This document shows, one piece after another, positions 8,824 through 23,092 of a DNA stretch of 26,000 bases. The DNA lies in the IMG/VR virus record IMGVR_UViG_3300031659_000079, positions 1-26,000 of that record; one strand, given 5' to 3'. The notes beneath the pieces were generated by a model. The model was not told where the DNA came from. It searched no databases and saw only the letters and a list, made by a program, of their open reading frames with translations. The DNA comes from a virus. The position numbers and the translations under genes are program-made. Within the stretch, counting starts at the first letter, position 1, and every line of letters begins with the position of its first letter.

Positions 8824-9745
8824 ATATCCGATTTACATAATTTCAAAGGGTAGACAAGAATCAATGTTTACCTCTCGCTCCCTAGCTAGAATGAATGTAC
8901 CACATTTCATAGCAATTGAGCCACAAGATTATGATGCATATGTTATAGCACTGAAAGAGTTTAGCTTGCAGGCGGTTGTTACGCTGCTGGTCTTGCCCTT
9001 CAGTAATCATGGTGATGGTCCAGGGCGCGCCCGTAATTGGTGTTGGGATCATTCAATCGAAAATGGATACGATGCACACTGGGTGTTGGATGATAATATT
9101 CAGGACTTCTATCGCTTCAATAACAACATTCGGATACGAGTAGGATCAGGTGTGTTCTTCCGAGTAATGGAGAAGTTCTTTGACCGATACGACAACATTT
9201 ATATTGCTGGTCCTCAGTATAGGTTTTTTATTGCGCCTAATCAGAGCTATCCACCGTTCGTCACCAATACTCGTATTTACTCTTGTCTTCTTATTCGCAA
9301 CGATTGTAAGCACAGATGGCGTGGACGGTATAATGAGGATACCGACATCTGTTTACGAGTCCTTAAAGACGGAGATTGCACAGTCCAATTCAATGCATTC
9401 TTGCAAGGAAAAGTAGCAACTCAAACCGTGAAGGGTGGTAACTCAACTGAATTCTACCACAAGGAGGGTCAAGAAGAAGGCATGACTGAAGAAGAAGTAG
9501 CCACGAAGGTTGCTGAATCTGGTGAGAGATATAATGTCAAGGGAACTATAAACAAGTCTCAGATGCTAGAGGACATGCATCCTGATGTCGCTAGAGTCGT
9601 GTGGAGATACGGTAGATGGCATCACTATGTTGATTACTCATCATTCAAGAAGAACAAGTTGATACGCAAAGAAGGTGTGCCGTTGATACGAGGAGTGAAT
9701 GAATATAATATGAAATTAGTTACATTAACTGAAAAAATTACTTGA
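8810..9745 (+). CDS. TET-associated-type glycosyltransferase (TAGT-like)
   Basis: 311 aa from ATG 8810, overlapping the previous gene by 14 nt, with GAGG upstream. Motifs in order: YPIYIISKGRQES (about 6-18), VPHFIAIEPQDYDAY (30-44), LPFSNHGDGPGRARNWCWDHS (62-82), HWVLDDNIQDFYRFN (90-104, DDN as metal/sugar site), TRIYSCLLIRND, RWRGRYNEDTDICLRVLKDG and KGGNSTEFY. These match the glycosyltransferase family found next to TET/JBP dioxygenases in phages, thought to add sugars to modified DNA bases. No dioxygenase is visible in this window, so the substrate base must be made elsewhere in the genome or differ. Confidence 0.85.
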   Translation: MTNSKYPIYIISKGRQESMFTSRSLARMNVPHFIAIEPQDYDAYVIALKEFSLQAVVTLLVLPFSNHGDGPGRARNWCWDHSIENGYDAHWVLDDNIQDFYRFNNNIRIRVGSGVFFRVMEKFFDRYDNIYIAGPQYRFFIAPNQSYPPFVTNTRIYSCLLIRNDCKHRWRGRYNEDTDICLRVLKDGDCTVQFNAFLQGKVATQTVKGGNSTEFYHKEGQEEGMTEEEVATKVAESGERYNVKGTINKSQMLEDMHPDVARVVWRYGRWHHYVDYSSFKKNKLIRKEGVPLIRGVNEYNMKLVTLTEKIT

Positions 9746-11596: not shown

Positions 11597-13705
11597 TTAT
11601 TTGTATTGGGATCTTATCATTGTCTGCATAATGCCGTGACTTTTACTGAAAAGATTGTAATGAGTTGTTGTGTTATCTGATATTTCTACGCCAGAGTACA
11701 CCTGTTCGTCTTGGTATATCACTGAAGTGTATTGTAGTGTTGTATAGTATGCATCAAGATTTGCACCAGATGCTAGTACAGATAATGCAAGCATTTGCCC
11801 AGATGCTGCGGCGTTAGAGTCTTCCATGTTTTGGACTCGGGTGGACTCGGCTATTCTCTCAGCAAGAGATGGTGCCTTCGGCACTTCCACCACTGCTTGC
11901 TCAGTGATAGTCTCTGATATCGAAAATCCTATAGGTGCCGAGTCTCCCAGTGCGATATTTTGCTGCATATCCTGGCTATTTTGTGTAAATTGTTCATTTT
12001 GAGTACCAGTTTCAGTACCAATACCGATTTGGCCCGTCATGGCACCGAACCCACCCACATCTGACGCGAAAAATTGCTGTTCGGCACTACTAAATGATGA
12101 ATCACCACCGAAGTAGTTGCCACCAGAGCCGCTACCATCCGAGTTATTGTAGCTGCCAGAGGACTGACTACCACTCGAACTCACACTTGCAGCCTCAGCA
12201 TTGCGTACTAGTTCGCTTGATTCACGGACAGAAATCGATATTGCTCGGTTGTTACGCCTCGAACCAATGATTTTCTTCTCTTGCACTACGGTACCGAGTT
12301 TTTCTTCTAGTGATTCTTCTAGTGGATCAAGAACGGCAACCGATTCGAGTTCCTTTTCTATTGACTCTTCTTCTAAGAACTCTTCCTCGAAAATGTCAGT
12401 GATTTTCATATCATCTAGGAGAATTTTTTTCTCTTCCTCGGCAAATACATCTACCATTTCACCGGCAGCTTTTGCTACTTGCTCGACTGATATTTCGCCA
12501 TCGGCGCTGATTGCATCGGCTGGTGAAAAGGGCAGTGCTGAATAAACTTCCTCTGGTGGTCCAACTGTCTCAGCGTATCCGTTTCCTCCACCAATTGCAC
12601 TGCCTCCGCCAAAGTCGAGAATAGCTGCGCCTAGTGGATCAAGTCCAGGTGCACCGATGTTAGTATATCCTTGATTGGGATCTTCTTGACCATTGGGTCC
12701 AGAGAACGGAGATTCTTCTTTAAATTGACCATCGTCCATAGAAGGATCTGAATTTTTGTCTGGTTCACCAGTGTTCTGATTATCATATGGTGCATCCTTT
12801 TTATCAGTTTCTGCCATCGCAATTGCTGCGGAATATCCAGTACACGAAGGCGAAAATAGAGGATCAAGTGTACATTGATCATCAATATATGCTTGCCCGT
12901 ATCCATCACATGAGGTATCATATAGGGAGTTGATTGAACATTGTTGCGCTAGATATGCAGCTTCATAACCAGAACATGTAGGCGATGATAGTGGATCAGA
13001 TGAGCATGGATCGTAGACTGTCTCGGTTATAGTGCCATCTGGACTTACTTCCCAGTCTTGGATATTCACGCCTGTTGTTACTTGAGTACCATATTCAATC
13101 AGAGGCTGATATTGATTAATCTCACCAGCTTGCACATCACCCGTTATTCCTGTCCATACAGTTGATGTGTTTATATTAGTGTCACCATATGTGGTTAATA
13201 TTTGACCAGACTGTTGTAATTCAAGTCCAAAATCACTATATCTAGCACCGCCCTCTTGTTGTTCCGCATTACCATAGATTGAGTAGTATTCAACCATGTT
13301 ACTCCATCGATATTTCTGATAGTCTGATCCTGAATCAATGAAATATTTTGTTGTATCATCGGGAGCGATATCAGACCACAATGGAGCTACCATGTAACTG
13401 AAAGCCTGTGCATTTAGATTGCCGAGATTGTATGCATCCCATGCAGACTGTGGATTCCAGTTCTTTGGAGCGCAATACATGTTTGCAGGATTACAGCCTG
13501 TGCCCGCAGTAGGATCAAACAATCCCACCACTCCATTATCATACATTATTGAGTGAGTGAATACTTGCCCATATAGTGGAAAGCCAAAGTTCAGTGGAAC
13601 GTAGACATACGAATCGTCCACTATAATAACTTCTACTTCATCGGCTGTTGCTTCACCAAAACATAATAATAAGCCGATCAGTAAACTACTTACAAGTTTT
13701 TTCAT
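11597..13705 (-). CDS. large exported protein with Cys repeats
   Basis: 702 aa from ATG 13705 (MKKLVSSLLIGLLLCFGEAT, a signal peptide); a GTG at 13720 would add five residues. Residues about 25-230 form a beta-rich extracellular domain (VPLNFGFPLYGQVFTH, MVAPLWSDIAP) resembling a nidogen-like domain. About 230-300 hold three tandem modules of the form C...DPL.SPTCSGY.AAY..QC. Then a low-complexity acidic and Gly/Ser region and a C-terminal segment with SLAERIAESTRVQ and a helical, mixed end. Predicted to be secreted or surface-exposed rather than a classic tail fibre. The frame overlaps the end of the upstream gene, so expression is coupled. It might bind host or neighbouring cells; that is inference. 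Confidence 0.7.
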   Translation of the reverse strand: MKKLVSSLLIGLLLCFGEATADEVEVIIVDDSYVYVPLNFGFPLYGQVFTHSIMYDNGVVGLFDPTAGTGCNPANMYCAPKNWNPQSAWDAYNLGNLNAQAFSYMVAPLWSDIAPDDTTKYFIDSGSDYQKYRWSNMVEYYSIYGNAEQQEGGARYSDFGLELQQSGQILTTYGDTNINTSTVWTGITGDVQAGEINQYQPLIEYGTQVTTGVNIQDWEVSPDGTITETVYDPCSSDPLSSPTCSGYEAAYLAQQCSINSLYDTSCDGYGQAYIDDQCTLDPLFSPSCTGYSAAIAMAETDKKDAPYDNQNTGEPDKNSDPSMDDGQFKEESPFSGPNGQEDPNQGYTNIGAPGLDPLGAAILDFGGGSAIGGGNGYAETVGPPEEVYSALPFSPADAISADGEISVEQVAKAAGEMVDVFAEEEKKILLDDMKITDIFEEEFLEEESIEKELESVAVLDPLEESLEEKLGTVVQEKKIIGSRRNNRAISISVRESSELVRNAEAASVSSSGSQSSGSYNNSDGSGSGGNYFGGDSSFSSAEQQFFASDVGGFGAMTGQIGIGTETGTQNEQFTQNSQDMQQNIALGDSAPIGFSISETITEQAVVEVPKAPSLAERIAESTRVQNMEDSNAAASGQMLALSVLASGANLDAYYTTLQYTSVIYQDEQVYSGVEISDNTTTHYNLFSKSHGIMQTMIRSQYK

Positions 13706-14645
13706 CGGGATACTTCTCACAGAAGTCTTCCTTTTTCCAAACTTTATAGGATATGTTCTTATTGTCTTCTAGTGTAGTTTGAGCGGGCCGCGCAATGCCG
13801 TCAGGTAGACGATCAGGATTATTCTCCCATGCAACCAATGCCTCATCGCCGATTCTTCCTTCAAACGGGCAAGGGGTGCCAGCCATCATCATGGCATTCC
13901 AAACTCTTTCGTCTTGACACATTAATGATACTGATGCAACCTTCATGCCCATATCATATAGCGTTTTGGAGAGTTTGATGCGTTCACAGTTTTCATCTCG
14001 TACTGCTTTACCAGCAGACATTCCGAATATCTGTGTTTGAACTGCACCAGAGATTCCGGTTGTACATAGATCCTGTGAATAGGATGATCCAATACTGGGA
14101 GCGACGGCTGAAGGTGGAGGAGAGTTTATGGTGGTCTCACTCACGTTCCTATTTATGTTTTCGTTCTTGTTGTTCGTGTTGACATCAGATTTGGATGTCG
14201 AGTTGTTAGTATTGGTGTTGTTGCTGGTATTATCAGACGTGCTGTTTATAGACTGATTTATATTACTGTTGTTGTTATTGTTGTTAGTATTGGTGTTGTT
14301 GCTCGTGCTGTTATTCCAACCAGTGTATGATGTGTTGTTGGTATTGTTACTGTCTAGTGTCGTGTTGTTAGTGTTGTTATTGTTACTCGTATTGCTGATT
14401 ATGCTGGTGTTATTGTTATTATTTGTACCAGTATACGTTGTGTTGTTATTGTTATTATTTGTACCAGTATACGTTGTGTTGTTATTGTTGTTATTGGTAT
14501 TTGTGTTGGTAGAATCCACCGTACTTGTTGATGTAGTATCGGTGTTTATATTCGTGGTCGTATCCGTAGTCTGTGCCTGTGCGGATACGAAGGGGAATAC
14601 GAGTAAGGTGCATATGATAGCTACCTTTTTGATGATGTTGGGCAT
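13686..14645 (-). CDS. exported Asn/Thr-rich protein with Cys domain
   Basis: 319 aa. Signal peptide MPNIIKKVAIICTLLVFPFV...AQA. Residues about 26-180 are almost only N, T, S and D with a 12-residue repeat (TTYTGTNNNNNN) present about two to three times. The C-terminal domain (about 190-319) contains DLCTTGISG, GKAVRDENCERIKL, VSLMCQDERVWNAMMMAG and TPCPFEGRIGDEA, with cysteines probably forming disulphides after export. Similar C-terminal domains occur in marine phage proteins of unknown function. GGAGG precedes the ATG. Likely a secreted or surface protein with a long flexible stalk; role unknown. Confidence 0.75.
   Translation of the reverse strand: MPNIIKKVAIICTLLVFPFVSAQAQTTDTTTNINTDTTSTSTVDSTNTNTNNNNNNTTYTGTNNNNNNTTYTGTNNNNNTSIISNTSNNNNTNNTTLDSNNTNNTSYTGWNNSTSNNTNTNNNNNNSNINQSINSTSDNTSNNTNTNNSTSKSDVNTNNKNENINRNVSETTINSPPPSAVAPSIGSSYSQDLCTTGISGAVQTQIFGMSAGKAVRDENCERIKLSKTLYDMGMKVASVSLMCQDERVWNAMMMAGTPCPFEGRIGDEALVAWENNPDRLPDGIARPAQTTLEDNKNISYKVWKKEDFCEKYPDEKTCK
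14408..14489 (-). repeat. 36-bp tandem repeat in the Asn/Thr-rich region
   Basis: Bases 14408-14453 are identical to 14444-14489, giving a perfect 36-bp period over about 2.3 copies. In protein it is a 12-residue unit, so copy-number change keeps the frame. The surrounding 14180-14520 is a longer imperfect run of the same composition. Confidence 0.85.
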
Positions 14646-16093: not shown

Positions 16094-16122
16094 TTGACAA
16101 TGGGTAGATTATGTAGTATAAT
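16094..16122 (+). promoter_or_regulatory. sigma70-type promoter of the exonuclease
   Basis: TTGACA (16094-16099), 17-nt spacer, TATAAT (16117-16122). The ATG of the next gene at 16130 lies only eight bases after the -10 box, where transcription would normally start, so the mRNA may have no leader. Confidence 0.85.
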
Positions 16123-16129
16123 ATACATT

Positions 16130-16792
16130 ATGAAAACATTCGAACACATTGAACTACCTAATCTACCCTCGTTGACTCGACAGAACATTGACGGCAGGCG
16201 CATGTATCTGACTGAAAGCGGTGAGAAATATCCTTCTGTCACATCTGTTCTTTCAGTTCGTGGCAAGGCGGGCATTCAGCAGTGGCGCCAACGGGTAGGT
16301 GCGGAAGAAGCTGATAAGATATCAAGGAAAGCATCCACCAGAGGGACCAGAATACACTCTTTATGTGAAGACTATCTCAACAACAAACAACTTCCCGAGT
16401 TGTCCATGATGGACAGAGACATGTGGAACACCTTCTGCCCCATTGTTGAGCGCATCGACAAGATTCATGCGGTCGAACCTTTTCTCTTTAGTAATCATTT
16501 AGGCATGGCAGGTCAGTGTGATGCTATTGCAGAGTTTGATGGTAAGCTATCAGTTATAGACTTCAAGACATCTCGCCGCACGAAATATCACTCTTATATA
16601 TCCAACTACTTTGCACAGTGTGCCGCGTATGCTATCATGTATGAAGAGATGACTGGCATTGCTATCAACCGAACTGTGGTTCTTATTGCAGTTGAGGGTG
16701 ACTCGCCACAAATATTCATTGAGAAGCGCGACAACTATGTCCCGCATCTCCTAGAAACAAAGCGCATGTTTGACAATGGCGAAAGTGATTAA
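16130..16792 (+). CDS. PD-(D/E)XK exonuclease (RecB/Cas4/MGME1-like)
   Basis: 220 aa from ATG 16130; the frame is open upstream to 16094, but that stretch is the promoter. Catalytic signature in order: RGTRIHSLCE (H76), GMAGQCDAIAE (D131), LSVIDFKTSRR (D144 and K146, the D...DxK core) and QCAAYAIMYEE (Q163, Y167). This is the RecB-like nuclease arrangement seen in mitochondrial MGME1 and phage exonucleases. It probably degrades or trims single-stranded DNA ends in replication or recombination. It lies near the replication genes gp59 and gp32. Confidence 0.85.
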   Translation: MKTFEHIELPNLPSLTRQNIDGRRMYLTESGEKYPSVTSVLSVRGKAGIQQWRQRVGAEEADKISRKASTRGTRIHSLCEDYLNNKQLPELSMMDRDMWNTFCPIVERIDKIHAVEPFLFSNHLGMAGQCDAIAEFDGKLSVIDFKTSRRTKYHSYISNYFAQCAAYAIMYEEMTGIAINRTVVLIAVEGDSPQIFIEKRDNYVPHLLETKRMFDNGESD

Positions 16793-16796
16793 CCAC

Positions 16797-16825
16797 TTGA
16801 CAACACACGCTTTTTATGTTATTAT
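16797..16825 (+). promoter_or_regulatory. sigma70-type promoter of the tmRNA gene
   Basis: TTGACA (16797-16802), 17-nt spacer, TATTAT (16820-16825). It starts four bases after the exonuclease stop. Transcription would begin near 16832, just upstream of the acceptor piece. Confidence 0.85.
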
Positions 16826-16830
16826 AAATA
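16823..16830 (+). promoter_or_regulatory. T4-type late box TATAAATA overlapping the tmRNA promoter
   Basis: Exact TATAAATA sharing three bases with the sigma70 -10 box. It gives the tmRNA a possible second, late start. The orphan RNA at 7315 has nearly the same composite design. Confidence 0.55.
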
Positions 16831-16831
16831 C

Positions 16832-17140
16832 TAGATTCGATGATGCATGATGCATAGTTTTGTTTGGACTCGGGGGCAGTACCCGACAGCTCCACCATAA
16901 TTACTTTGTTGCGTAAAAACAACAAACTTACGGCATAGAGTAATTATGAAGGGGCTGAACTAGGATTCGACAAGCAAGATAAAGTTATGTGGAGAATAGG
17001 TCAATGCTAAAGACCTTGAGGTTTGGGCGTTCCCGGACGGAGAAGCAAAATCCATAAATGCCAACGATGACGCATTTTTACTAGCCGCATAGGTTAGTTG
17101 AGGCATGGGAACCACCTTATAATCAAACGGTCCCACTTAT
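16832..17140 (+). ncRNA. ssrA: circularly permuted (two-piece) tmRNA
   Basis: The acceptor piece comes first: helix strand 16858-16866, T-arm with 5-bp stem 16870-16874/16882-16886 and 7-nt loop, acceptor strand CAGCTCC 16887-16893, A94 discriminator, encoded CCA at 16895-16897. An intervening segment 16898-16950 folds into TAATTACT/AGTAATTA and a 7-bp inner hairpin. The coding piece begins GGGGCTG at 16951, which pairs fully with CAGCTCC including a G.U at the third pair, the alanine identity element; CAAGCAAGA (16971-16979) pairs with 16858-16866 as helix 2. A GTTTGGG/CCCGGAC hairpin precedes the reading frame at 17060-17092, encoding ANDDAFLLAA then TAG. A TGGGAACC/GGTCCCA stem (about 17106-17135) ends the piece. 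It would rescue stalled ribosomes and tag peptides for degradation. Outer ends approximate. Confidence 0.92.
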
Positions 17141-17171: not shown

Positions 17172-17525
17172 ATGATAGAAATCCAATCACACATTTCCCC
17201 TAGATTATCAGTTACTGATCTTGCTGTAGAAAAAGTTCAAAGTCTCCAGAGAAGTGAGAATGCAGATGACCTCAAACTTCGAGTGTGCGTTACAGGCGGC
17301 GGATGTTCTGGTCTTGAGTATGGGTTCTCCTTCGAGAAAGAACAAGAAGAGGATGATACGCTGATTAGTCGGAACGGCGTAACAGTGTTGATCGACCCCA
17401 TGAGTTTTCAATATTTAACTGATGCAACGATTGACTATGATGTTGGTTTGATGGGTTCTGGATTTTTGATTGTCAATCCCAATGCGAAGTCTACTTGTGG
17501 TTGCGGCTCTTCATTTTCAATTTAG
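17172..17525 (+). CDS. HesB/IscA A-type iron-sulfur carrier
   Basis: 117 aa. The three conserved cysteines are present: C45 in GGGCSGLEYGF and C109/C111 in STCGCGSSF, the cluster-binding set of A-type carriers (IscA, ErpA, HesB). The length is usual and the domain complete. It would receive and deliver Fe-S clusters in the cytoplasm, perhaps to a phage or host enzyme during infection. HesB-like genes are known from some marine T4-like phages. No clear Shine-Dalgarno sequence lies before ATG 17172, and no separate strong promoter is seen, so it may be transcribed with the tmRNA. Confidence 0.92.
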   Translation: MIEIQSHISPRLSVTDLAVEKVQSLQRSENADDLKLRVCVTGGGCSGLEYGFSFEKEQEEDDTLISRNGVTVLIDPMSFQYLTDATIDYDVGLMGSGFLIVNPNAKSTCGCGSSFSI

Positions 17526-17554: not shown

Positions 17555-17660
17555 ATACAACTAGATACAAACTCAACATATTGTTTGATATGATACAATA
17601 AATCATGAAAACAAGACTTTATTGAGTCATAAGAATACCTCTAAACCAAAGGATATATTA

Positions 17661-17945
17661 ATGAACAATCCGATCGACAATAAGATAAAACAAACAACGA
17701 TGACTGATCAGTTTCTGATAACAAAGGAGTTCAGTACATCAAATGATTTCTCCCAACACATTGAGAAGTTGGCTAATATATCTAATAGTTACATCGATGC
17801 TATTGTCGGCTACTGTGACAAGCGGGACATTGAAATTGAGAGTGTTAAGAAACTCCTATCTGTCTCCCTGAAAGACAAAATTAAGAATGAAGCTGAAGAG
17901 TTGAATCTCCTTAAAGGTGGAAGAGGCGGTAAGCTACCAATATGA
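17661..17945 (+). CDS. 33: gp33-like late-transcription coactivator
   Basis: 94 aa from ATG 17661 (MNNPIDNKIKQ), with AAAGGA at good spacing; an in-frame TTG at 17622 is less likely. The core YIDAIVGYCDKRDIEIESVK, then LLS..LKDKIKNEAEELNLL, matches gp33 of marine T4-like phages. In T4, gp33 bridges RNA polymerase and the sliding clamp, and with gp55 activates TATAAATA promoters. Such boxes occur repeatedly in this window. It overlaps gp59 by ATGA, as 59 and 33 are neighbours in T4-like genomes (here in the order 33 then 59). Confidence 0.85.
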   Translation: MNNPIDNKIKQTTMTDQFLITKEFSTSNDFSQHIEKLANISNSYIDAIVGYCDKRDIEIESVKKLLSVSLKDKIKNEAEELNLLKGGRGGKLPI

Positions 17946-19750: not shown

Positions 19751-19768
19751 GGAGCCAGTCTAGGCTCC
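19751..19768 (-). terminator. hairpin at the end of the minus-strand tail block
   Basis: Perfect GGAGCC...GGCTCC inverted repeat with 6-nt loop, overlapping the last codons and stop of the 557-aa gene. On the minus strand no T tract directly follows, so it may be a weak terminator or an RNA-stabilising hairpin. Confidence 0.4.
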
Positions 19769-21433
19769 GTTAACAAATCTCGCTGAGCCTAATGCACCCG
19801 ATTTCATTTGATCACCCAGTACAACAGTCACCGCGGGTGCCGCCACTGTTGTTTGCCCTTTGCCACCACCACTTGTGGTGTTGTTAACTATTATAGGTTG
19901 ACCCCCACCAGAATTAGCGGATGCCGCATTATCTGTCGCGGTTGCAACTGATGCAGAGTTGAGATTAGCTCCGGTATTAGTATTTGCCGTTGCGCCTGAA
20001 GTTAAGCGACTTCTTGGATTTATATCTCGACTAGATCCACGGCCACGACGGCCGTGTGATGGTATTCCTACTCCAGTATCACTTGCTGATGTAGCGGGGG
20101 TTTGAGTTTCGAGTCCACCCGATGCCGCACTATTAGATCCTATAGCTCCATTCATCTCTTTTTTCTGTTCTTCAGGACCAAGCCCTATAAATGATGCTAT
20201 TTCGTCCTTAATTATCCCACCTATCAAAGCCGACCGTTCGAGTTTCTTATCTTGCTCTGGATCAGTTTCGGGAAAATACGTCTTACCGTCGCCATTAAAA
20301 TCAATTCCTTTATATATATCTCTTCCTAAGTTGGTGACAGCAGCAGCAATTGCAACTGGCGTACCGAATCCCGTGAACGATGTCAATGCAGCAGCAGTAT
20401 CGATTCCCGCGCCAACAAAATCTCCTCGTACCATGCGATACATTGCAGCCCCGCTGCTTGCAAGCGCACCAAGCAGAGGAACACCTTTCGCTGCTGTGAA
20501 TGCTATTCCTTTTTTTGCTTGTGTTTTAATAATAGCTTTTAAAGCACTTGGTTTCGGTGGCGCGCCAGGTGGCTTGAATGATTTAGGAGTCAGTGATGTT
20601 GGCAAAGGAGGTTTCTTAGCAGAAAATTTACTAAGCACGTTATTAAACACATTACCAGCTTTGTTAGCCACTGCTCTGCCAGCACTAGATATACCATTTA
20701 TAGCACTTGCACCAATGTTCGCAGCACCTTTCAATACTGACGGCGCCGATTTTATGGCAGCAGAAAACATCGACTTTTTGTTGCCCTCACTATCTAGTGC
20801 ATCTGACAATGCTTCTCTACCATTCTCGGGCGACACGCCAGCTGAATTTGTAGCATCGGTTAACTTACCCATTGCAAGGAGCAGCGCACCCATGCCAGCT
20901 AATCCCACTATGCCTCCCTTCTTTGCTGCGGCGCCATGTGCGCCCAACTTAGAACCGAATCCTGCTTTAATTGATTCTTCTGAGACAGGTGTTGGCTTAT
21001 CTATCTTTTGCGCTACAGTCTTTGCATTAATCTCCTTGAGTTCTTCTTTAATTTCTATCAACTCGCGTTCAAGATCGTTTAGATTTTCAGAACTAGACTC
21101 AAGCGCAGTTCGATTAACGGTGCTATTTTTTCCGTTATTCTCTGCGGCTTTTGCTCCAACAAATCTTCCTTGTCCGACGACATTTCCACCCATCGTTGGA
21201 GTAGACGCTGATATATTAGCACCGACTAAACCACCGAACCCAGTTGATACTTGTCCGTCTGATTTTTCATCTGAACCTGACCCTGCGCCCGCGAGTTTGG
21301 CACCTGCATATCCTGCCGCAGCTCGCTTGCCAAATCTGCCAGCCATTCTTAATGCACCACCACCAACTGCGGCTGTACCGCGAAGGGCGCCGTATGCCAA
21401 TCTTCCTGCTCCTAGTAATAGTGGTAAAGCCAT
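19760..21433 (-). CDS. virion protein, candidate tape measure (gp29 analogue)
   Basis: 557 aa, rich in Ala, Gly and Ser. Residues 1-50 are Gly/Ala-rich amphipathic; a coiled coil is likely at about 117-140 (LERELIEIKEELKEINAK); hydrophobic patches lie at about 172-190 and 310-370; DFNGDGKTYF (378-387) resembles a calcium-binding loop; the rest is low complexity. It is the last gene of a tube protein, gp26, gp51 block, where T4 places its hub and tape-measure genes. T4 gp29 is 590 aa, a similar length. No direct sequence match recognised, so the tape-measure role rests on position, size and composition; another internal virion or membrane-active protein is possible. Confidence 0.5.
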   Translation of the reverse strand: MALPLLLGAGRLAYGALRGTAAVGGGALRMAGRFGKRAAAGYAGAKLAGAGSGSDEKSDGQVSTGFGGLVGANISASTPTMGGNVVGQGRFVGAKAAENNGKNSTVNRTALESSSENLNDLERELIEIKEELKEINAKTVAQKIDKPTPVSEESIKAGFGSKLGAHGAAAKKGGIVGLAGMGALLLAMGKLTDATNSAGVSPENGREALSDALDSEGNKKSMFSAAIKSAPSVLKGAANIGASAINGISSAGRAVANKAGNVFNNVLSKFSAKKPPLPTSLTPKSFKPPGAPPKPSALKAIIKTQAKKGIAFTAAKGVPLLGALASSGAAMYRMVRGDFVGAGIDTAAALTSFTGFGTPVAIAAAVTNLGRDIYKGIDFNGDGKTYFPETDPEQDKKLERSALIGGIIKDEIASFIGLGPEEQKKEMNGAIGSNSAASGGLETQTPATSASDTGVGIPSHGRRGRGSSRDINPRSRLTSGATANTNTGANLNSASVATATDNAASANSGGGQPIIVNNTTSGGGKGQTTVAAPAVTVVLGDQMKSGALGSARFVNGA

Positions 21434-22340: not shown

Positions 22341-23039
22341 TTAAAATATTTCATCAAATGTATCATCAATTGTATTTTTTATGCTGTTTTTGAGTTGTCC
22401 CGTGAGTGTTCCAAAATTAAGATTAAGAATCTGGCCAAGAAGACTTCTTCTATCTCCCTTCTCGCCGGGTTTCCACTTGAGGAATGAGAATGTGACTGTC
22501 ATTCTTGCAACACCCTCGCCTGCCGCGTGCCCTAGTGGTGTCAACGACAGAACTCTCGGGAATGCTTCATGTAAAGTCCACTCGCCGATGATTTCATCTT
22601 GGCGATTGAGTGAGTAAATTGTTATCTCTCCCGTATAGTCTCCATAGAACTTCACTTCTTTCGTTACGGGATTTACTATTTCTTTCATCCACGATTCAAA
22701 GTATTGTCTGGCATTCCAATCAGTATCAGTAAGGAATGTTATTGCGGCAGTATCACCGTAAAATTCCATATTAGAAACTCTATTCTCTGTCCATGTACCA
22801 ATTTTAACGGGAGTGTATGTCAGATTCAATCCAGGAACAGACACTTCTTCAACCATCATGGACATTTCGCGCTCGTCTGCATCGATTCCCAGTGGACCGT
22901 TGATATAACAGGCGAATCGATTAACTCGTGTTAAGTCATTGCGCCTAACATGTGATACCATATTATTTAGACTGAATACAGGCTTTTTCTTTTTGGCAGC
23001 TTTGGCTTCTGGCTCGGCGGGGCTGGTATCAGTTGACAT
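22341..23039 (-). CDS. gp19-family tail tube or tube-initiator protein
   Basis: 232 aa. After a Lys/Ala/Pro-rich N-terminus, the core RVNRFACYINGPLGIDADER, VEEVSVPGLNLTYTPVKIG, DTAAITFLTDTDWNARQYFE, FYGDYTGEITIYSLNRQDEI, and LHEAFPRVLSLTPLGHAAGE follows the T4 gp19 tube pattern. The basic and hydrophobic ends (about 1-30 and 210-232) are extra relative to plain gp19, and resemble gp54-like initiators. It could be the tube protein, a paralogue or the initiator; position beside gp26 favours the latter. GAGAG precedes ATG 23039. Confidence 0.75.
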   Translation of the reverse strand: MSTDTSPAEPEAKAAKKKKPVFSLNNMVSHVRRNDLTRVNRFACYINGPLGIDADEREMSMMVEEVSVPGLNLTYTPVKIGTWTENRVSNMEFYGDTAAITFLTDTDWNARQYFESWMKEIVNPVTKEVKFYGDYTGEITIYSLNRQDEIIGEWTLHEAFPRVLSLTPLGHAAGEGVARMTVTFSFLKWKPGEKGDRRSLLGQILNLNFGTLTGQLKNSIKNTIDDTFDEIF

Positions 23040-23054
23040 CTTATTTTCTCTCAG

Positions 23055-23062
23055 TATAAATA
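23055..23062 (+). promoter_or_regulatory. T4-type late box for gp4
   Basis: TATAAATA 29 nt before the gp4 ATG at 23092. It faces the minus-strand late box at 23085-23092, so the two transcripts would start about 10 nt apart and overlap. Confidence 0.7.
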
Positions 23063-23084: not shown

Positions 23085-23092
23085 TATTTATA
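23085..23092 (-). promoter_or_regulatory. T4-type late box for the tail block (minus strand)
   Basis: TATAAATA read on the minus strand (23092 to 23085), about 45 nt upstream of the tube-protein ATG at 23039. It overlaps the first base of the gp4 start codon. Confidence 0.7.

Follow-up and report, generated by a model that had tools for sequence, protein, structure and literature searches.

A marine T4-like myovirus carries a complete, circularly permuted tmRNA gene that very probably functions as the phage's own: it would be transcribed from a dual promoter, processed by the host, charged with alanine, used with host SmpB to tag products for proteolysis, and supplied independently of the host. 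The window (the whole 26-kb stretch of DNA that was analysed) is a virus fragment from this phage, and the gene lies on its plus strand at 16834-17140. A circularly permuted, two-piece tmRNA had been proposed in a sequence-only reading of this DNA. ARAGORN and Rfam now agree on that call, and covariation among relatives and a conserved place in T4-like genomes, including those of cultured phages, support it. We also consider a wider proposal, to which we give an even chance: that in marine T4-like phages a permuted tmRNA is maintained behind a promoter of its own, in which a sigma-70 -35 element is fused to the late octamer, an arrangement that would provide rescue during the whole infection, and that the tRNA-like half (T-loop plus D-loop) is swapped between lineages as the promoter and tag part are kept.

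Structure of the tmRNA gene and covariation among relatives

ARAGORN called a permuted tmRNA at 16834-17140 with the tag ANDDAFLLAA, the same tag that had been read from the letters at 17060-17092. The Rfam model of permuted tmRNA (RF04321, tmRNA_permuted; curated cut-off 47 bits) matched the gene over the full length of the model with 100.1 bits (E 1e-18). The alphaproteobacterial model (RF01849, alpha_tmRNA; cut-off 50 bits) scored 68.5 bits, with a match spanning only model positions 82-179 of 355, the tRNA-like half. The check by ARAGORN and covariance models that the sequence-only reading had proposed was therefore positive with both. As that reading had described, the CCA-ending piece, which ends at 16897, lies 5' of the GGGGCTG coding piece, which starts at 16951, and an intervening segment separates them (Table 1). 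The 7-bp acceptor helix, formed by GGGGCUG (16951-16957) and CAGCUCC (16887-16893) with a G·U third pair, and the 5-bp T-stem with its 7-nt loop (16870-16886) are likewise present in the letters. The tag frame has an alanine resume codon, GCC, a hydrophobic end in -AA and a UAG stop. The unaided minimum-energy fold of the whole tmRNA stretch recovers the acceptor stem, the T-stem and helix 2 (z = -3.98; none of 100 shuffles was equally stable). Two features, a precursor hairpin in the intervening segment and a promoter, are additional to the first reading.

Table 1. Features of the permuted tmRNA gene and its surroundings, in window positions
Feature	Positions	Strand	Basis and remarks
T4-like exonuclease, PHROG 298, conserved upstream neighbour	16094-16792	+	PHROG match, synteny
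Sigma-70-type promoter TTGACA-N17-TATTAT, 11/12 consensus matches	16797-16825	+	Motif; TTGAC kept in 7 aligned close relatives
T4-type late promoter octamer TATAAATA, overlapping the sigma-70 -10	16823-16830	+	Motif; ATAAATA kept in all 7 aligned sequences
Acceptor piece of permuted tmRNA (helix 2 5' side, T-arm, 3' acceptor strand, discriminator A, CCA)	16834-16897	+	Sequence, ARAGORN, Rfam, fold; 5' end approximate
Helix 2, 5' strand UUUUGUUUG, partner 16971-16979	16858-16866	+	Sequence, covariation, fold
T-stem UCGGG/CCCGA (16870-16874 with 16882-16886) and 7-nt alphaproteobacterial-type T-loop GGCAGUA	16870-16886	+	Sequence, Rfam
3' acceptor strand CAGCUCC (16887-16893), discriminator A, CCA ending at 16897	16887-16897	+	Sequence, Rfam
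Intervening segment, 53 nt, its ends a 12-bp precursor hairpin prolonging the acceptor stem	16898-16950	+	End-pairing test in relatives, fold
Coding piece (5' acceptor strand GGGGCUG, alpha-type D-loop, helix 2 3' strand, pseudoknot region, tag frame, 3' stem)	16951-17140	+	Sequence, ARAGORN, Rfam, fold; 3' end approximate
Helix 2, 3' strand CAAGCAAGA	16971-16979	+	Sequence, covariation, fold
Tag frame ANDDAFLLAA (17060-17089, first codon GCC), then UAG	17060-17092	+	Sequence, ARAGORN
IscA/ErpA-like iron-sulphur carrier, PF01521, 65 bits, between tmRNA and gp33	17172-17525	+	Pfam match
gp33-like late-transcription coactivator, PF16805, conserved downstream neighbour	17622-17945	+	Pfam match, synteny

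For comparison we gathered 128 permuted tmRNAs, 91 of them unique and nearly all viral among the matches listed, drawn from IMG/VR with one protein search and two DNA patterns, and from cultured phages. Pair counts omit L012 and L013, in which the ARAGORN placement looked wrong (GGAGTGG acceptor), and L075, in which the tag looked wrong. In the 91 unique viral tmRNAs all seven acceptor pairs and all five T-stem pairs are standard, a result that is partly conditioned because the two search patterns demanded CTCC ends and the parser demanded at least 6/7 acceptor and at least 4/5 T-stem pairs. The search patterns left the fifth and sixth acceptor pairs and the first two T-stem pairs free. At these positions the 91 tmRNAs have four to five (acceptor) and four (T-stem) different standard pair types, with no exceptions.

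The tests of helix 2 and of the intervening segment were free of parser selection. Pair 2 of helix 2 is standard in 89/91 (shuffled mean 40, maximum 56) and pair 3, which is U-A in the window and A-U in L001, in 78/91 (shuffled mean 60). Past the third pair the signal fades, and the 9-bp length is therefore particular to the window copy. Thus the 9-bp helix first described is present here (10 bp in the minimum-energy fold), but in relatives only about the first three pairs are consistently kept. The two ends of the window's intervening segment form a 12-bp helix, and of 71 relatives 85% can pair the segment's own ends over 8 bp or more, compared with 13% for ends taken from different phages. 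A hairpin kept while its letters differ is as expected for a precursor in which cleavage would occur at either side of the acceptor stem. Taken over the relatives' sequences, covariation supports the acceptor stem, the T-stem, helix 2 and the putative precursor hairpin; the compensatory pairing in homologues on which the sequence-only reading had staked its call is kept.

Genomic place and comparison with known tmRNAs

Phage genes lie on both sides of the window tmRNA: PhoH, the exonuclease, the IscA-like protein, gp33, the gp59 helicase loader and gp32 surround it, and T4-like tail and baseplate genes follow further on. Among named phages, the most similar gp32 proteins (~55-57% identity) include those of Pelagibacter phage HTVC008M, cyanophages and Melnitz. 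In close IMG/VR relatives, whose exonucleases are 71-93% identical to the window's, the gene immediately 3' of the exonuclease is a permuted tmRNA; in more distant relatives the tmRNA lies between the exonuclease and gp33. The order phoH-exonuclease-tmRNA-gp33-gp59-gp32 recurs in many contigs and cultured phages. This conserved place among phage genes therefore marks a syntenic, phage-owned gene and not host contamination, and the earlier statement that a phage carries the tmRNA holds.

The IscA-like gene gave no tblastn match in sister contigs L001-L008. It was found elsewhere in L011 (509-823) and in L135, and relatives of it occur in only 11 of 50,697 phage records. Two long frames in the window, at 11597-13720 (-; 707 aa) and 19760-21433 (-; 557 aa), have no PHROG or Pfam match.

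The tmRNA genes of Bacillus phage G, mycobacteriophages Bxz1 and Wildcat and other phages listed before 2015 (PMC4131195) are likewise phage-carried. They are not known to depart from the standard, unpermuted gene order. Mycobacteriophage DS6A also has a tmRNA-related RNA, but one with little beyond the tRNA-like domain (PMC4131195); in the window both pieces are complete. Permuted phage tmRNA genes are common, and the window gene belongs to a published kind. One survey counted 133 unique phage tmRNA structures; 53 were two-piece, and 50 of these 53 were marine or aquatic (PMC9004378, 2021-2022). The remark that phage examples are rare is contradicted by this survey and by a single degenerate T-arm pattern, which gave at least 120 matches in IMG/VR.

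The closest published parallels are Melnitz (Methylophilales, MZ577097) and Mosig (Pelagibacter, MT647606), T4-like marine myoviruses that, like the window, have a permuted tmRNA between a PD-(D/E)XK exonuclease and a late-transcription coactivator (PMC9004378), annotated as SsrA in this exonuclease-gp33 interval. They differ from the window in the intervening segment and in the tag (ANDNYVPVDYALAA in Melnitz and GEDNFALAA in Mosig, against ANDDAFLLAA), and only the window has the IscA-like gene directly 3' of the tmRNA. Both were reported with a glutamine riboswitch accompanying the tmRNA (PMC9004378). In the window Rfam found no glutamine riboswitch at its curated cut-offs, and relaxing the threshold to E 10 in the region of the tmRNA gave none either.

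With the alphaproteobacterial permuted tmRNA (RF01849, within RF04321) the window gene shares the gene order, the T-loop GGC(A/G)GUA, the D-loop, the G3·U acceptor and a tag ending in AA. It differs in its longer intervening segment and phage-type promoter, the alpha model matches the tRNA-like half only, and the mRNA part is closest to that of sister phage contigs, unlike alphaproteobacterial tmRNA. The five nearest contigs (L001-L004 and L008), with exonucleases 91-93% identical to the window's, all carry the tag ANDEVFALAA in place of ANDDAFLLAA and share the window's promoter and mRNA part (78-88% and 70-80%, respectively, in L001-L003). In all five the T-loop is of the standard type (UUCGANU) and the D-loop differs from the window's; in the window both loops are of the alpha type. 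Assigned to rough classes, T-loop and D-loop types go together in 88/91. In the exonuclease tree the window groups with L001, L004 and L008 (support 100/98), and the T-loop type requires seven changes in total. The permuted order puts the tRNA-like part in one stretch of ~120 nt. That T-loop and D-loop changed together relative to the closest relatives points to exchange of the tRNA-like module between lineages, which would be the simplest reading of these sequences.

The similarity of the tmRNA did not reveal the host: 385 genomes, from the class of the Rhodobacteraceae MAG G001 (FZLS01), gave only short T-arm and acceptor matches, none decisive. Such similarity would not settle the question, because Melnitz has an alpha-like tmRNA and a non-alpha host. 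G001 itself has eight contigs with permuted tmRNA matches, at least two of them with TATAAATA upstream, and these are probably phage contigs binned with the bacterium. L152 was considered as a cellular (Rhodobacteraceae) tmRNA and rejected; it is one of these eight permuted tmRNAs, its promoter is of the phage type with TATAAATA, and it is therefore probably binned phage DNA.

A sigma-70-type promoter overlapping a late octamer

The spacing between the -35 element and the octamer is 27 in the window and 24 in most relatives that have the late motif; the TATTAT -10 and the TATAAATA octamer therefore overlap here with a 3-nt offset. Across the relatives, ATAAATA is found upstream in 46 of the 88 unique tmRNAs with enough upstream sequence (~0.04 expected per 120 nt), nearly always 41-51 nt before the T-arm. 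A TTGA(C/T) element lies 24 nt upstream of the late motif in 33/47, which puts TATAAA at the optimal sigma-70 spacing for a -10 element. The octamer TATAAATA itself occurs 8 times in the 26-kb window against 1.7 expected, several times ahead of structural genes.

Motif counts over related sequences, which overstate independence because of that relatedness, place TATAAATA in 31/37 strong sigma-70-like promoters (TTGACA or TTGACT, 17 nt, at least 5/6 of TATAAT) at tmRNAs and in 5/187 elsewhere on the same contigs, and a -35 element at 39/43 tmRNA-associated TATAAATA octamers and at 15/166 elsewhere. A plain strong sigma-70 promoter is thus an insufficient description. Melnitz (L196) has TTGACA-N17-TATAAATA, the same fused type, ahead of its tmRNA. 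The natural inference from these motifs is that the tmRNA would be transcribed both early, by the host enzyme, and late, with gp55, gp33 and the clamp.

What tmRNA tags is the growing chain on a stalled ribosome, not a completed protein. This argues against the early-only role proposed for Melnitz, in which the tmRNA would tag and destroy host proteins early in infection for their amino acids. The authors put the Melnitz gene behind an early promoter (PMC9004378), and a near-consensus sigma-70 promoter is indeed present at the window tmRNA. Nevertheless, in the window, in Melnitz and in the great majority of the strong tmRNA promoters counted above, the sigma-70 promoter is joined to the T4 late octamer, and we regard an early-only role as unlikely. 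The published rationale for phage tmRNA rests on an early-only promoter, while the conserved combination of sigma-70 and late elements is found in the cultured Melnitz as well; with the fused promoter, the timing and purpose of ribosome rescue for phages become a matter that a simple time course could address.

The late promoter is TATAAATA in T4 and NATAAATA in cyanophage S-PM2, and overlapping early and late promoters have been suggested to constitute the middle mode in RB49 and S-PM2 (PMC2984593). The fusion of a sigma-70 -35 element to the late octamer at tmRNA genes looks new; neither it nor the exchange of loop modules was found in the literature examined, most subscription papers lying outside it. 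A second fused promoter, TTGACA-N16-TATAAATA, lies at window positions 23033-23062 (+), ahead of a frame at 23092 and beside tail and baseplate genes.

Proposed function and unannotated copies

From a promoter open to both the host sigma-70 polymerase and the phage late (gp55/gp33/clamp) polymerase, a single transcript would start near 16834. In the precursor, the hairpin of the intervening segment would prolong the acceptor stem, and host tRNA-processing enzymes would excise 16898-16950, leaving two RNAs that helix 2 and the acceptor stem hold together. Once mature, the tmRNA would be charged with alanine by host AlaRS via the G3·U pair, be bound by host SmpB and enter ribosomes stalled on broken mRNA, which is likely abundant during destruction of host nucleic acids. 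It would add ANDDAFLLAA, the ribosome would be released at UAG, and the -LAA end would direct the tagged product to host proteases. The phage would gain a tmRNA supply independent of the host chromosome and would keep ribosomes free as host DNA and mRNA are destroyed.

SmpB was not found in nine phage records (this 26-kb fragment, Melnitz, Mosig, HTVC008M and five other IMG/VR records) by a search that was positive in 10/14 control genomes; the phage tmRNA therefore probably uses host SmpB, although, the record being a 26-kb fragment, an SmpB gene could lie elsewhere in the same phage. The functions first suggested, ribosome recycling and proteolysis through the phage's own tag, are plausible, and the conservation of -LAA ends, found in 60/75 distinct viral tags, would fit rescue together with proteolysis.

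Alternatively, the phage tmRNA might be a decoy that acts by titrating SmpB or EF-Tu of the host, thereby blocking host trans-translation, as for the tag-less DS6A domain. A phage molecule with only the tRNA-like domain does strongly inhibit tmRNA, perhaps through SmpB titration (PMC4131195, PMC11915505), but the viral set keeps the mRNA part, the tag frame and the -LAA end, none of which a decoy would need, and we consider this role quite improbable. The kept G3·U acceptor, tag frame and -LAA ends argue instead for real trans-translation with degradation of the product. Least probable of all is a passive relic, a host ssrA acquired by imprecise excision or recombination and having no role: ssrA is a common integration site of mobile elements (PMC9004378, PMC11915505) and the window T-arm and acceptor match cellular alpha tmRNAs well, but the gene is complete with its own promoter, sits in one and the same interval throughout a deep tree of T4-like phages, has helices maintained through compensatory change, and gives only short matches in the 385 genomes of one class (best ~30-46 nt around the T-arm). 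Retention with intact helices over so many lineages would disfavour a relic and leaves a functional, phage-owned tmRNA as our preferred reading.

Annotations miss some of the permuted tmRNAs (128 gathered, 91 unique), including some in cultured phages. HTVC008M (L198, KC465899.1) has an unannotated one with the tag ANFNEYALAA between its annotated exonuclease and gp33 (record positions 144755-146004). Ruegeria phage vB_RpoS-V10 (L155, at about record positions 9234-9269) has another, with the tag ANINNAPMEMAIAA, in an unannotated stretch. DSS3P8, RcXuper and Sinorhizobium phage Phosso have T-arm matches that are likewise without annotation.
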